Source: Aquimarina amphilecti (GTDB lineage: Bacteria; Bacteroidota; Bacteroidia; Flavobacteriales; Flavobacteriaceae). Taken from it: a DNA stretch of 64,000 nucleotides. Below, in pieces: positions 16,516 to 49,454 of the stretch; the stretch's first letter is position 1; each line of letters begins with the position of its first letter. A program made the position numbers and the translations under genes. The notes beneath the pieces were generated by a model, which saw only the letters and a list, made by a program, of their open reading frames with translations, had not been told where the DNA came from and did not search any database. The stretch spans positions 434,001 through 498,000 of the forward strand of contig NZ_FOAB01000002.1 of the NCBI RefSeq assembly GCF_900109375.1, read 5' to 3'.

Positions 16516-16863
16516 ATGAATATATCTGATTTTATTAAGAGACTTAGAAAAGATCCTGAAGGAATTACATTTCAGAATACACTAGATGTAATTGAAGCTC
16601 ATTACGATTTTAAACCTGCTTCGTTTGTTAATGGAAGTATAACTAATGATGTTGGGCAAAATTCAGGTTCCTGTAAGTTGTTCTCCTTTGCAAAAATTCA
16701 AGGCTTAGAAGAAGAAGATACATTAACGTGTTTTGGAGAGTATTATAGAAACGTGGTACAATATCCAGATGGAACTGATCACCAAAATATTCGTAATTTT
16801 ATGAAAACAGGATGGAGTGGAATCTCTTTTAAAGATCAGGCGCTTACTAAAAGACTTGCGTGA
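16516..16863 (+). CDS. HopJ type III effector family protein
   Basis: A 115-aa protein matching the HopJ family along its length: FIKRLRKDPEGITFQNTLDVI, the conserved HYDFKPASFVNG, NSGSCKLFSFAKIQGL, then TLTCFGEYYRNVV and HQNIRNFMKTGW. The name comes from a Pseudomonas effector, but the family is spread through free-living bacteria and no type III system is visible here, so an effector role should not be assumed. It is 3 bp behind rsmI and probably co-translated with it. Confidence 0.85.
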   Translation: MNISDFIKRLRKDPEGITFQNTLDVIEAHYDFKPASFVNGSITNDVGQNSGSCKLFSFAKIQGLEEEDTLTCFGEYYRNVVQYPDGTDHQNIRNFMKTGWSGISFKDQALTKRLA

Positions 16864-17299: not shown

Positions 17300-17965
17300 G
17301 TGGCTATTGTTGTAGTAATATTATGGCAATTACCATATTTTGGGTGGTTTCAATATCCATTTAGATTATTGGGGACTTGGTTCCACGAAATGGGTCACGG
17401 TCTTATGGCGGTATTACTAGGAGGTAGTTTTGAGCATTTAGAAATTTATGAGAATGGAGGTGGTGTTGCTTACTACCATTTAGGAGGAAGCTATGTCTCT
17501 CCTTTTATAGGTAATGCCTTAGTAGCGGCAGGAGGATTATTAGGACCAGCTGTGATTGGAGCTTTATTAATAATGTCTGCAAAATCGCACAGAAATTCTA
17601 TGATAGCACTTAGAGTATTAATAGGAGTTATGATACTTTCGTTGTTGTTATGGATTAGATCTTTTTGGGGAGTATCTGTAATGAGTGGTTTTGCAATCTT
17701 TTTATTTGTTATTACCTTATTTAAGAGTAGAAAACTCGAAGTAGTTGTTATCTTGTTTTTAGGTTTACAATCTGTATTAAGTACATATCTTCAGCTGGAT
17801 TACTTATTTACAAAACAGTTCGAAAGAGATGGAGCAATTCAGATATCGGATACACAAGCTATTGCAGAAAATACTTTTGGTACTTATTGGATGTGGGCTA
17901 TTCTGATTATACTTATGAGTGCTTATTTACTTTGGAAAAGTTTTCGATATTATTTTAAAAAATAA
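17300..17965 (+). CDS. M50-like (peptidase M50B family) membrane metallopeptidase
   Basis: A 221-aa polytopic protein. The zinc motif HExxH is present as WFHEMGHG (about residues 29-36) at the start of the first transmembrane region, followed by five or so more hydrophobic segments and a basic C-terminus. It belongs to the small M50B-like family related to site-2 proteases; substrates are unknown. The only ordinary start is GTG 17300, which cuts into the first hydrophobic helix. The frame stays open for 18 more codons (17246-17299, encoding SISKRFDYTIII) that look like the normal family N-terminus, so translation may begin upstream at a non-standard codon. Confidence 0.75.
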   Translation: MAIVVVILWQLPYFGWFQYPFRLLGTWFHEMGHGLMAVLLGGSFEHLEIYENGGGVAYYHLGGSYVSPFIGNALVAAGGLLGPAVIGALLIMSAKSHRNSMIALRVLIGVMILSLLLWIRSFWGVSVMSGFAIFLFVITLFKSRKLEVVVILFLGLQSVLSTYLQLDYLFTKQFERDGAIQISDTQAIAENTFGTYWMWAILIILMSAYLLWKSFRYYFKK

Positions 17966-18040: not shown

Positions 18041-18373
18041 CTAACAAGAGATTTTTGCGTATTTAGGATCTAAGGTAGTACCATACACCTTATAGCATTC
18101 TGTTACGGGCTTATCGTAGCTCTTTGTAAAAATAGTTGACCATCCAAATGCCCAGTTTTCTTCCACTTTTAAGTAAATAGAAGTAGCACCTTCTGGAATA
18201 GTTTCGGATTTATTTACTCCTAAGGATATATCACCAGAGTGTTTGCTGAATTCCTTACCATTTAATTTATAAGATAACGTAAAACGGGCTACGTACCCAC
18301 CTTCACACCTTATCAGAATAGAGCCTGTTTGTTTTGCATCTAAATGAGTTAATACTGCTTCTTTTAATTCCAT
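18041..18373 (-). CDS. Stand-alone thiol-activated-cytolysin C-terminal (domain 4)-like protein
   Basis: A 110-aa protein without a signal peptide that aligns by eye, end to end, with domain 4 of cholesterol-dependent cytolysins. GGYVARFTLSYK matches the strand read GAYVAQFEV in perfringolysin; ETIPEGATSIYLKVEE matches the stretch before the undecapeptide; EENWAFGWSTI takes the place of the undecapeptide ECTGLAWEWWR; and KVYGTTLDPKY matches SIWGTTLYP, including the Thr-Leu pair that recognises cholesterol. No pore-forming domains are present here or next door. Three Cys (near residues 24, 92 and 110) are not in the toxin positions. The domain may bind lipid or another ligand; the function is unknown. 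The gene is alone between two terminators or leaders. Confidence 0.72.
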   Translation of the reverse strand: MELKEAVLTHLDAKQTGSILIRCEGGYVARFTLSYKLNGKEFSKHSGDISLGVNKSETIPEGATSIYLKVEENWAFGWSTIFTKSYDKPVTECYKVYGTTLDPKYAKISC

Positions 18374-18476
18374 GATTTATGTTATTAATCCTCTACTCTG
18401 TTTAAAATTTGGCTTTTCGAATCCGCCGATGTAATCAAAAAAGTAGCTACCCTTTAATGTGTTTTTTAATTACGCT

Positions 18477-18727: not shown

Positions 18728-19525
18728 ATGGAACAGGCAATCCAACCAAAACAATTAATGACCTTAGAACAAGCACAGAAAATTGAACGATGGCAACAGG
18801 AAGAAGTTTTGCTGTTAGCAAGACATTTTCAACGTCTAAATGAAACGAAAGGCAGGCCTTTTAGTGGATTTTATACCAGAGCTAATTATTTTCAAATGGA
18901 TGCTGAAGATGTTGCTATACTGAATAACCTTAAAGATGATGGAAAAACTATTCAAAGAATTAAAACTCATATGGCATTAGAAATAGAAGACAAAAAGAAT
19001 TTCACTTTTGTGCCAATTATAGAAGTAGACCTAGAGGATACAATCAACAATTTGTTTTTTACTTTGATTCCAAAATATAAGGAACCGGTAGAGCCAATTC
19101 AGAATGGAACAATAGGAGATTTGGATACTGGAGGAGTATTGGTACCAGGGATTTTTAAAGAGATGATTTTAACCAATTGGAACAATCTTGAAGATAATTT
19201 GATAGATGATCTTTTTGTGGCAGTCGATACGAAAGCAAGACAAAGAGAGCGAGTAAATTATTACTTAATTGATAACATTGATATAATCGATCTTATTAAT
19301 GATTCTTTATTGGGAGAAATTGAGGAGTTTATTCTCTATCCCGGAGTTGATATGAATAAGTTTCATAAAAGAGATATGATTTCGTTTACTCCAGTCATAG
19401 GAATCACACCTGTAGGTGAAGTCATTACTGAAATTTTATCAAGACATGCGTTGTTAGAATTTACGGATGAAGAGATTTTTATAGAATATTCTAGTCCTTG
19501 TCCACCCACGTGTCCCGAAGCATAA
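18728..19525 (+). CDS. Unknown conserved protein, first gene of a two-component operon
   Basis: A 265-aa soluble protein with no signal peptide. The N-terminus is helical (LMTLEQAQKIERWQQEEVLL, FQRLNETKGRPFSGFYTRANYF); the middle is rich in acidic and hydrophobic residues (DLEDTINNLFFTLIPKYKEP); it ends in a Cys/Pro tail (SSPCPPTCPEA). I do not recognise a family. The next gene starts 20 bp later and the three following genes overlap or abut, so it is probably transcribed with the sensor kinase and regulator and may supply a signal or target for them. Confidence 0.7.
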   Translation: MEQAIQPKQLMTLEQAQKIERWQQEEVLLLARHFQRLNETKGRPFSGFYTRANYFQMDAEDVAILNNLKDDGKTIQRIKTHMALEIEDKKNFTFVPIIEVDLEDTINNLFFTLIPKYKEPVEPIQNGTIGDLDTGGVLVPGIFKEMILTNWNNLEDNLIDDLFVAVDTKARQRERVNYYLIDNIDIIDLINDSLLGEIEEFILYPGVDMNKFHKRDMISFTPVIGITPVGEVITEILSRHALLEFTDEEIFIEYSSPCPPTCPEA

Positions 19526-47550: not shown

Positions 47551-48576
47551 ATGATTAAGATACATAAAAAGCGTTTTGTGATACATCTAATTATACTATT
47601 GAGTATTGCAATAGTGTTATCCATGATTGTGTTTTTTTCTTCAAAAGAAAACCTTTCGCTTAATGCTTTGCCAGAATTCTTTCTTCAAACTTCCTCTAGT
47701 ATTTTTCTTCTACTGGCACCTCCTATTTATTTTAATATTTACTGGTTAATCCCTAATTTTCTTGTTAAAAAAAAGTACCTTATTTATGGGGTTATTGTTA
47801 TTATTTTAGTTGCTATTTGGGGATATGTTTTGGGTGTTGGAGAACCTTGGATAGACAGAAATTGGTTTAATAAAGGTGATGAAAAACCTAATTATGGAGT
47901 AGGAGTTATAGGTACTGTTTTATTGCTAATTGTTACTACCTTGTTGCATATCGTTTATCGATGGTTTGTACAATTGTCTACAATAAAACAGATAGAAAAC
48001 GATCAATTACATTTAGAATTATCATCTTTAAAAAACCAAATCAATCCGCATTTCTTTTTTAATACGCTTAATAATTTATATGCATTGTCTTTAGAAAAAT
48101 CAGATCAAACGCCTTCAGTTATTTTGAAATTATCAGAAATGATGCGTTATACAATTTACGATTGCAAAGAACAAGAGGTTTCTGTAGCAGGAGAAGTAAC
48201 TTATATTGAAAACTTTATTACTTTACAAAAAGTAAGGCATCATAAAAGAGGGGTTATCACGCTAAAAAATGAAATTAATAATACCGATGTTAAAATTGCT
48301 CCTATGATTTTAATCGTGTTTATTGAAAATGCTTTTAAACACGGTTTTGATTTATTGGATAAAAAAGCATTTATTAATATAAGTTTAAAAGATGATGATA
48401 ATGCTCTTTATTTTAACATTGAAAATAATTTTAATACCCCTACAGAAGAACGTGAAAAAGGGATAGGTCTTGAAAACGTAAAAAGAAGATTGGCGTTAAT
48501 TTATCCTAATACTCATGAGCTTAAAATTGTTAAAAATGAAACGTTATTTCGTGTAGACCTAAAACTGTATTTATAA
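47551..48576 (+). CDS. LytS-type sensor histidine kinase
   Basis: About 341 aa from ATG 47551 (MIKIHKKRF; a GTG at 47530 is an alternative). Four membrane helices, then the phosphoacceptor box QINPHFFFNTLNNLYAL and ATPase motifs (VFIENAFKHGF, KGIGLENVKRRL). It overlaps the next gene at its stop codon by 1-2 bases, indicating coupling. It is divergent from the ABC ATPase, so the pair may control that operon, with a 207-bp spacer between. Confidence 0.9.
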   Translation: MIKIHKKRFVIHLIILLSIAIVLSMIVFFSSKENLSLNALPEFFLQTSSSIFLLLAPPIYFNIYWLIPNFLVKKKYLIYGVIVIILVAIWGYVLGVGEPWIDRNWFNKGDEKPNYGVGVIGTVLLLIVTTLLHIVYRWFVQLSTIKQIENDQLHLELSSLKNQINPHFFFNTLNNLYALSLEKSDQTPSVILKLSEMMRYTIYDCKEQEVSVAGEVTYIENFITLQKVRHHKRGVITLKNEINNTDVKIAPMILIVFIENAFKHGFDLLDKKAFINISLKDDDNALYFNIENNFNTPTEEREKGIGLENVKRRLALIYPNTHELKIVKNETLFRVDLKLYL

Positions 48577-49377: not shown

Positions 49378-49380
49378 CGG

Positions 49381-49454
49381 TGGTCCCACTTGGGCTCGAA
49401 CCAAGGACCCCCTGATTATGAGTCAGGTGCTCTAACCAGCTGAGCTATGGGACC
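49381..49454 (-). tRNA. tRNA with anticodon CAT (elongator Met or Ile2)
   Basis: A 74-nt cloverleaf. Acceptor arm GGTCCCA/TGGGACC, D arm AGCTCAGCTGGTTAGAGC, anticodon stem-loop around TCATAAT with anticodon CAT at 49420-49418, T arm with GGTTCGAGCCC. The discriminator is A and the following encoded bases are CCG, so CCA is added afterwards. A CAT anticodon means elongator Met or Ile2 (lysidine-modified); sequence alone does not let me separate them. It is not initiator Met: the anticodon stem lacks the three G:C pairs. Confidence 0.93.

Follow-up and report, generated by a model that had tools for sequence, protein, structure and literature searches.

A stand-alone protein related to domain 4 of cholesterol-dependent cytolysins in Aquimarina amphilecti

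Domain 4 (D4) of the cholesterol-dependent cytolysins (CDCs) has so far been known as the receptor end of toxins and as a laboratory cholesterol probe. In the stretch of 64,000 nucleotides of Aquimarina amphilecti analyzed here (the window), a sequence-only reading had pointed to a gene for a free copy of this domain. The gene is a real ORF and lies on the minus strand, a strand having been left unstated before (Table 1); stop codons are found throughout the plus strand of the same interval, in the same register.

Table 1. Features of the D4 locus in the window
Feature	Position	Strand	Basis or remark
Gene of the stand-alone D4 protein (P0001), 110 aa and stop codon	18041..18373	-	ORF list, AF2 fold, dN/dS
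N-terminal extension, residues 1–16, with helix 3–12	18326..18373	-	DSSP of the model, N-terminal classes
Strand GGYVARF, residues 25–31, common to CDC D4	18281..18301	-	Alignments
Counterpart of the undecapeptide loop, residues 71–81, EENWAFGWSTI	18131..18163	-	Three residues shorter, without the CDC Cys and Arg
YGTTLDP, residues 97–103, Thr–Leu pair 100–101	18065..18085	-	Domain rows of the family
Left neighbor, Peptidase_M50B-like gene, convergent, marks the insertion site	17300..17965	+	Pfam E = 6.2e-41, synteny
Right neighbor, gene of a 265-aa protein with no Pfam match, divergent, marks the insertion site	18728..19525	+	Pfam scan, synteny
DUF805b-like element (Rfam RF02914), 16 nt before the start codon	18390..18429	-	20.3 bits, E = 0.0051 in 901 bases
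GTAGCTAC palindrome upstream of the element	18443..18450		Exact in four of five loci, last base changed in the fifth; by eye

Profile, fold and composition of the protein

Taken alone, the window protein resembled CDC D4 weakly: its match to the Pfam family PF17440 (Thiol_cytolys_C; E = 0.0091, 16.5 bits) did not reach the curated cut-off of 23 bits, its best sequence match in the PDB had E = 0.085, and an NCBIfam scan of it gave no match. The profile A1, made from 40 sequences (the window protein and 39 relatives), matched suilysin over profile positions 11–107 (E = 3.6e-8) and listeriolysin O over positions 5–107 (E = 1e-7), and 39 of the 40 members matched PF17440 at E ≤ 1, the best of them with E = 1.4e-6. 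No aegerolysin family was matched by the window protein at E ≤ 1 or occurred among the seven Pfam families matched by A1 members. The AF2 model (pLDDT 92.6, pTM 0.82) was an eight-stranded sandwich with an N-terminal helix, to which CDC D4 structures gave the best fit, outscoring every other match by a clear margin; the beta-sandwich of D4, for which the sequence-only reading had asked a structural check, was thus recovered in the prediction. Both the assignment to D4 and the stand-alone nature of the protein are borne out by profile, fold, and relatives.

As had been noticed from the letters, the pore-forming domains are missing (PF17440 was the only family at E ≤ 1 in the 110 residues, and PF01289, covering D1–D3, was not matched), a signal peptide is lacking (the N-terminus is not hydrophobic, with a best 12-residue mean of 0.08 on a simple scale), and no partner gene is adjacent, five neighboring ORFs having been scanned and found to be without a CDC or MACPF domain. 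All three motifs named earlier are present; the loop was correctly placed as the counterpart of the Trp-rich undecapeptide, but it is three residues shorter and has a different end. The protein has three cysteines, at residues 23, 93, and 110. It should be added that window positions 16516–16863 strongly matched the HopJ type III effector family (Pfam PF08888, E = 2.5e-47), a name that may not mirror the function here.

The Thr–Leu pair, the loop, and the domain in larger proteins

In perfringolysin, the Thr–Leu pair is the cholesterol recognition motif (PMC3390400, PMC4810212), and D4 by itself suffices for cholesterol binding (PMC4810212). The proteins P0001–P0121 gave 124 domain rows (three tandem proteins contributed two rows each), 122 of which had letters at the motif; Thr–Leu was found in 117 of these and GTTL in 113, counts that are not independent, because the rows are related. 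Among 42 other rows, Thr–Leu occurred in three, namely, the stand-alone copy of genome G125 and two longer proteins, the peptidase fusion L050 and L051. The frequency in longer proteins was accordingly 2/41, with none in the 37 MACPF rows and none in L041 or the CDC L052.

Most rows had an undecapeptide-equivalent loop of one of two types, EEMWGFGWST or EEAWFIASWST. In P0107, P0114, and P0119, the loop was three residues longer, which is the length of the undecapeptide, and these members link the shorter and the undecapeptide-length loops inside one family; P0107 and P0114 reached 43.5 and 45.6 bits, respectively, against PF17440. When toxin Arg-468, the last Arg of the undecapeptide, is replaced, about 1% of the activity or less is left, and the coupling between binding and pore assembly is disturbed (PMC3390400). 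The counterpart of this residue is absent from the window protein, which fits a protein that has no pore-forming part and hence no need of a coupling Arg. In ribosome display, perfringolysin variants altered in these regions still bound cholesterol, with Thr and Leu enriched, and one selected variant differing at the pair itself also bound it (PMC9057304); neither the presence nor the absence of Thr–Leu thus strictly indicates whether sterol is bound.

The domain was also found in larger proteins. A protein of Croceitalea dokdonensis combined Jacalin (1.6e-9) and MACPF (2.1e-21) domains with a D4-like domain at the C-terminus, and in a set of 38 proteins that included this record, all MACPF by precomputed Pfam annotation, the A1 profile matched the C-terminus of 37 (E at most 3.1e-9, with 38 sequences searched), P0159 being unmatched. 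In these Bacteroidota MACPF proteins (L040:3369-6221, P0122–P0158), mostly with jacalin, the CDC-D4-like end had not been seen by Pfam annotation and Thr–Leu is replaced. In the window's taxonomic family, L052 (L052:3010-4488, genome G1054) encodes a full CDC (Thiol_cytolysin E = 1.2e-80), whose D4 shares 29% identity over 96 residues with the window protein and matches the family profile at 1.1e-15. A D4-type domain further forms the C-terminal piece of the 1108-aa L050, together with F5/8 C, AbfB, and papain-like peptidase domains, and of the 560-aa L041, and it is internal in the 827-aa L051. Since the MACPF fusions, the D4 of the CDC L052, and the peptidase fusion all carry the domain of the stand-alone family, there is direct sequence evidence that this family and the toxin D4s constitute one domain family.

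This distribution bears on the idea that the D4 fold was kept and sterol recognition was not, the domain serving as a glycan- or protein-binding, lectin-like module and as a general binding end of larger proteins. Its position at the end of L050, L041, and the mostly jacalin-bearing MACPF proteins and inside L051 is consistent with such a role, as are the titles of the PDB entries 4qqq and 4zgh, which name sugar binding by pneumolysin. The near-constancy of Thr–Leu in the stand-alone and tandem rows, as opposed to the longer proteins, speaks against it, and we consider a lectin-like role of the window protein unlikely, though deserving attention.

Distribution of the family and conservation of the locus

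Surveys with A1 gave hits in 4 of 395 genomes of the phylum, 3 of 395 of the window's class, 3 of 349 of its taxonomic family, and, in the classes to which two of the hits belong, 1 of 98 and 1 of 244. The center genome of each set is counted in it, the sets overlap, and the figures for the phylum, the class, the family, and the 244 genomes are lower bounds, because first-look candidates were partly scored in some genomes. Outside the genus, the surveys yielded one stand-alone copy (G125) and five longer proteins (G390, G231, G886, G922, and G1054); the ORFs neighboring the former (L042) were uninformative. Family members by name included Aliifodinibius, Cytophagaceae ABcell3, Hathewaya, Planctomycetaceae, and Streptomyces, as well as two animals, a scale insect (Parthenolecanium corni) and a rotifer (Brachionus calyciflorus). 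For the three insect copies, the longest listed contigs measured 14.3, 5.2, and 7.4 Mb, and copies on contigs of this size are unlikely to be bacterial contamination. Judging from these sequences, the stand-alone family is rare and scattered among bacteria, with at least two animals added. Tandem double-D4 proteins of 200–241 aa (P0102, P0104, and P0113) were observed in metagenomes.

Phylogenetic analysis, which had been proposed with the sequence-only reading, was performed on 138 rows and 95 columns, few for this number of rows and with a bootstrap that had not settled; rows with fewer than 75 aligned residues were left out (163 remained), and the MACPF rows were thinned to one in three (12 remaining). 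The window protein was placed in a supported set of seven with Aliifodinibius, and a second supported set, of ten, joined the three insect copies with two from Streptomyces and five further rows. The P. corni proteins that group with the Streptomyces copies (P0078, P0079, and P0089) look secreted. Some members are named 'thiol-activated cytolysin C-terminal domain-containing protein' by NCBI. A literature search on stand-alone D4s and PF17440 found no account of such a family, which is weak evidence of novelty, as subscription journals lay mostly outside the search; PF17440 is named four times in PMC7860044, on Staphylococcus and Streptococcus.

Within the genus, five of the 52 genomes, among them that of the window, have the D4 gene, against none of 39 genomes of other genera in the same survey; Aquimarina latercula DSM 2041 is a named carrier. 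In all five carriers the gene lies between the M50B-like peptidase gene and the gene of the 265-aa protein. The latter protein was matched in 27 of the 52 genomes (the window's included), and the other 22 of these gave no D4 hit either in the fetched stretch or in the genus-wide survey. For six of these 22 non-carriers, the gap between the neighbors was aligned: in five (G006, G014, G037, G018, and G029), about 220–300 bases separate the aligned neighbor ends, against about 765 in the window, and in G010 the gap is about 725 bases. A gene remnant in this long gap was looked for by tblastn, which gave no hit at E ≤ 10. Carriage by mobile elements was also considered: tblastn of P0001 at E ≤ 0.01 gave 0 matches in 50,697 phage and 72,556 plasmid records, and an IMG/VR scan with A1 returned 26 stretches, none of them a relative.

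The D4 gene is under strong purifying selection. In ten pairs, its dN/dS was 0.006–0.025, whereas in the same pairs it was 0.030–0.062 for the peptidase gene and 0.04–0.32 for the gene of the 265-aa protein (0.21–0.32 in nine of the ten); many of the dS values exceed 1 and are thus rough. Between G033 and G042 (L018 and L019), dS was 0.22 for the D4 gene, 0.33 for the 265-aa gene, and 1.75 for the peptidase gene; as the first two are much closer than the adjoining peptidase gene, a recombination boundary adjoining the D4 gene is likely between these genomes.

The window's genome (G000) contains no second match to the window protein and no match to MACPF (PF01823), and PADLOC gave no match. These results bear on two further explanations. 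The window protein might be the binding half of a two-component pore former, with a separate partner forming the pore, as in aegerolysin/MACPF pairs, and fusions of the domain with MACPF and with a CDC core do occur in Bacteroidota, as described above. With no match in the genome to MACPF, the type of partner searched for, and the same ordinary neighbors in five loci, we regard this as very improbable. Even further from credible is an immunity decoy against a CDC-type toxin, as the sequence-only reading had suggested: apart from the identity of the domain nothing speaks for it, and the suggestion found no support in a genome with no MACPF match, no second copy of the domain, and no PADLOC match, the gene having no linkage to toxin genes and the same ordinary neighbors in all five Aquimarina loci.

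Upstream element, N-terminus, and the probable role of the protein

The RF02914 match before the D4 gene was found at the same place in all five loci, with 19.8–25.4 bits, all below the gathering cut-off of 35.6 bits. The distance from the AGAGTA end to the ATG is 20 nt in all five, and 19–42 nt in 29 other elements for which a start was found. Other matches above the cut-off occurred in all 11 chosen genomes (five carriers and six non-carriers) and in none of 14 controls; weaker ones (E ≤ 1, below the cut-off) were seen in all 14 controls. Loci were analyzed for 30 elements, with a few from each genome; these are not exactly the 30 highest-scoring ones, and many are orthologs of one another. 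By eye, 21 precede a short peptide of 45–65 aa (19 with a GG-type leader and two ending in AG), six precede a lipoprotein-like protein within 90 nt and one more slightly farther, and two stand before a 269-aa protein whose start is not Sec-like. In Aquimarina, the DUF805b elements (L054–L083) mark lipoprotein-like proteins and a set of short peptides that carry leaders and mostly contain Cys. Several of the elements have palindromes (GTCGAC, for example) and a TTTTGAT block upstream of them, and one (L076) is preceded by the GTAGCTAC palindrome. Covariation was seen in the four-pair stem: across the 30 elements, 99.2% of its cells were paired and 27 had changed on both sides, compared with 7.0 after shuffling, the elements having been picked by a model that contained this stem.

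The model R1, built from the 30 elements with those of D4 excluded, gave the window's D4 element 24.6 bits, and its top five matches in 206,552 bases were the five D4 elements (E = 0.0004–0.03). The sixth, at window positions 47847–47920 inside a histidine-kinase-like ORF, came near the D4 score (23.8 bits, E = 0.041). The candidate DUF805b-type element before the D4 gene remains below threshold, and its assignment relies on position, recurrence, and spacing and not on score, in five loci that are related and not independent. The upstream block occurs once in the genome with up to three mismatches. Its T-arm look had suggested a tRNA fragment as an attachment site of the insertion; this was rejected, as the only tRNA found by ARAGORN in the window is tRNA-Met at 49379–49454 and the block fits DUF805b. 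A literature search for 'DUF805b' found no paper.

By a simple hydrophobicity rule, N-termini could be classified in 120 of 121 proteins (the window protein included): 12 were Sec-like, 67 had a short extension of 9–24 residues, 22 had none, and 19 had a longer one. In the 12 Sec-like proteins, a hydrophobic segment takes the place of the helix region of residues 1–16, and the signal of the secreted-looking members ends approximately where the short helix of the others ends, which is suggestive of an export role of the helix. A double-glycine leader ends in GG and has a hydrophobic residue at −4. The window protein has TG and a charged −4, and a G precedes the conserved G in 38 of the 67 short-extension members; with this charge and 22 of 120 members having no leader, such a leader is kept here as no more than a possibility.

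The protein could also act inside the cell, as a lipid sensor or a lipid-binding housekeeping protein of the bacterium itself. The lack of a signal peptide, the three cysteines, and a dN/dS below that of either neighbor agree with this, and the inner leaflet is what a cytosolically produced D4 probe labels (PMC4810212). On the other side stand the patchy occurrence in the genus, the secreted look of some related copies, and the distribution of PF13243 (squalene-hopene-cyclase-type), which is absent from all five carriers, the window's genome included, and was found, in a frame of 383–392 aa, in four of six tested non-carriers. A self-made hopanoid is thus an unlikely ligand, although other lipids of the cell would be compatible with the absence of one cyclase domain. 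On balance, an intracellular role appears distinctly doubtful.

The explanation we favor, with a probability of about 50%, is that the window protein is a stand-alone protein of CDC D4 fold that binds membranes containing sterol or a similar lipid unaided, through Thr–Leu and the aromatic loop, without forming pores. The pair and the loop, at one tip of the sandwich, would contact the membrane; no pore-forming step would follow, as the toxin feature that relays the binding signal to the pore-forming domains is absent. The site of action would probably be outside the cell, on membranes of other organisms. Homology and fold of D4, the conservation of Thr–Leu, and the precedent of perfringolysin D4 acting alone (PMC4810212) argue for binding; the Pfam score below the cut-off, a loop unlike the undecapeptide, and the sub-threshold upstream element argue against this reading. 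Export is inferred from the Sec-like relatives and an upstream element resembling that before exported products, and it is opposed by the lack of a signal peptide and by the 89 of 120 members with a short or no N-terminal extension. Sterol binding and the target membranes are likewise deduced, and a binder of lipid or sterol, or a lectin-like one, appears to be the best functional reading.

A more elaborate version of membrane binding is speculative and rather doubtful as a whole. In it, the protein would be an exported, non-lytic natural sterol binder, the helix being a leader cut before Ser18; the DUF805b-type element would switch the gene together with leader peptides and lipoproteins, and the mature D4 would coat or mark eukaryotic membranes (e.g., of algae or sponges). 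The gene would have moved between bacterial phyla and into animals, gaining ordinary secretion signals there.

A natural family of free D4s would show the binding domain living on its own outside toxins, and, if sterol-binding, its members would be naturally selected sterol probes with shorter loops. The family allows one to ask whether Thr–Leu without the classic undecapeptide suffices for sterol recognition, and the scale insect and rotifer copies raise the question of its use in animals.

Compared with CDC toxins, the window protein has the beta-sandwich fold of D4 in its model and the cholesterol-recognition pair (T100–L101); it differs from them in having no D1–D3 core, no signal peptide, and no undecapeptide with Cys and coupling Arg, and from CDC D4 (PF17440) in its shorter loop and extra N-terminal helix. 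In the Jacalin–MACPF proteins of Bacteroidota, the same C-terminal domain is fused to a domain of the pore-forming type and does not keep the pair, and L052 differs from the window protein in being a complete CDC, with an N-terminus like that of a lipoprotein and a divergent D4 in which Thr–Leu is not kept. Aegerolysins occur in bacteria too. They are likewise small lipid-binding proteins (PMC7763983), but a separate family, with no Pfam aegerolysin match and no MACPF partner found here. The CDC-like proteins (CDCLs), frequent in Bacteroidota genera, represent the reverse case: as described in PMC7527733, they keep the core and have no similarity to CDC D4, no undecapeptide, and no Thr–Leu pair.
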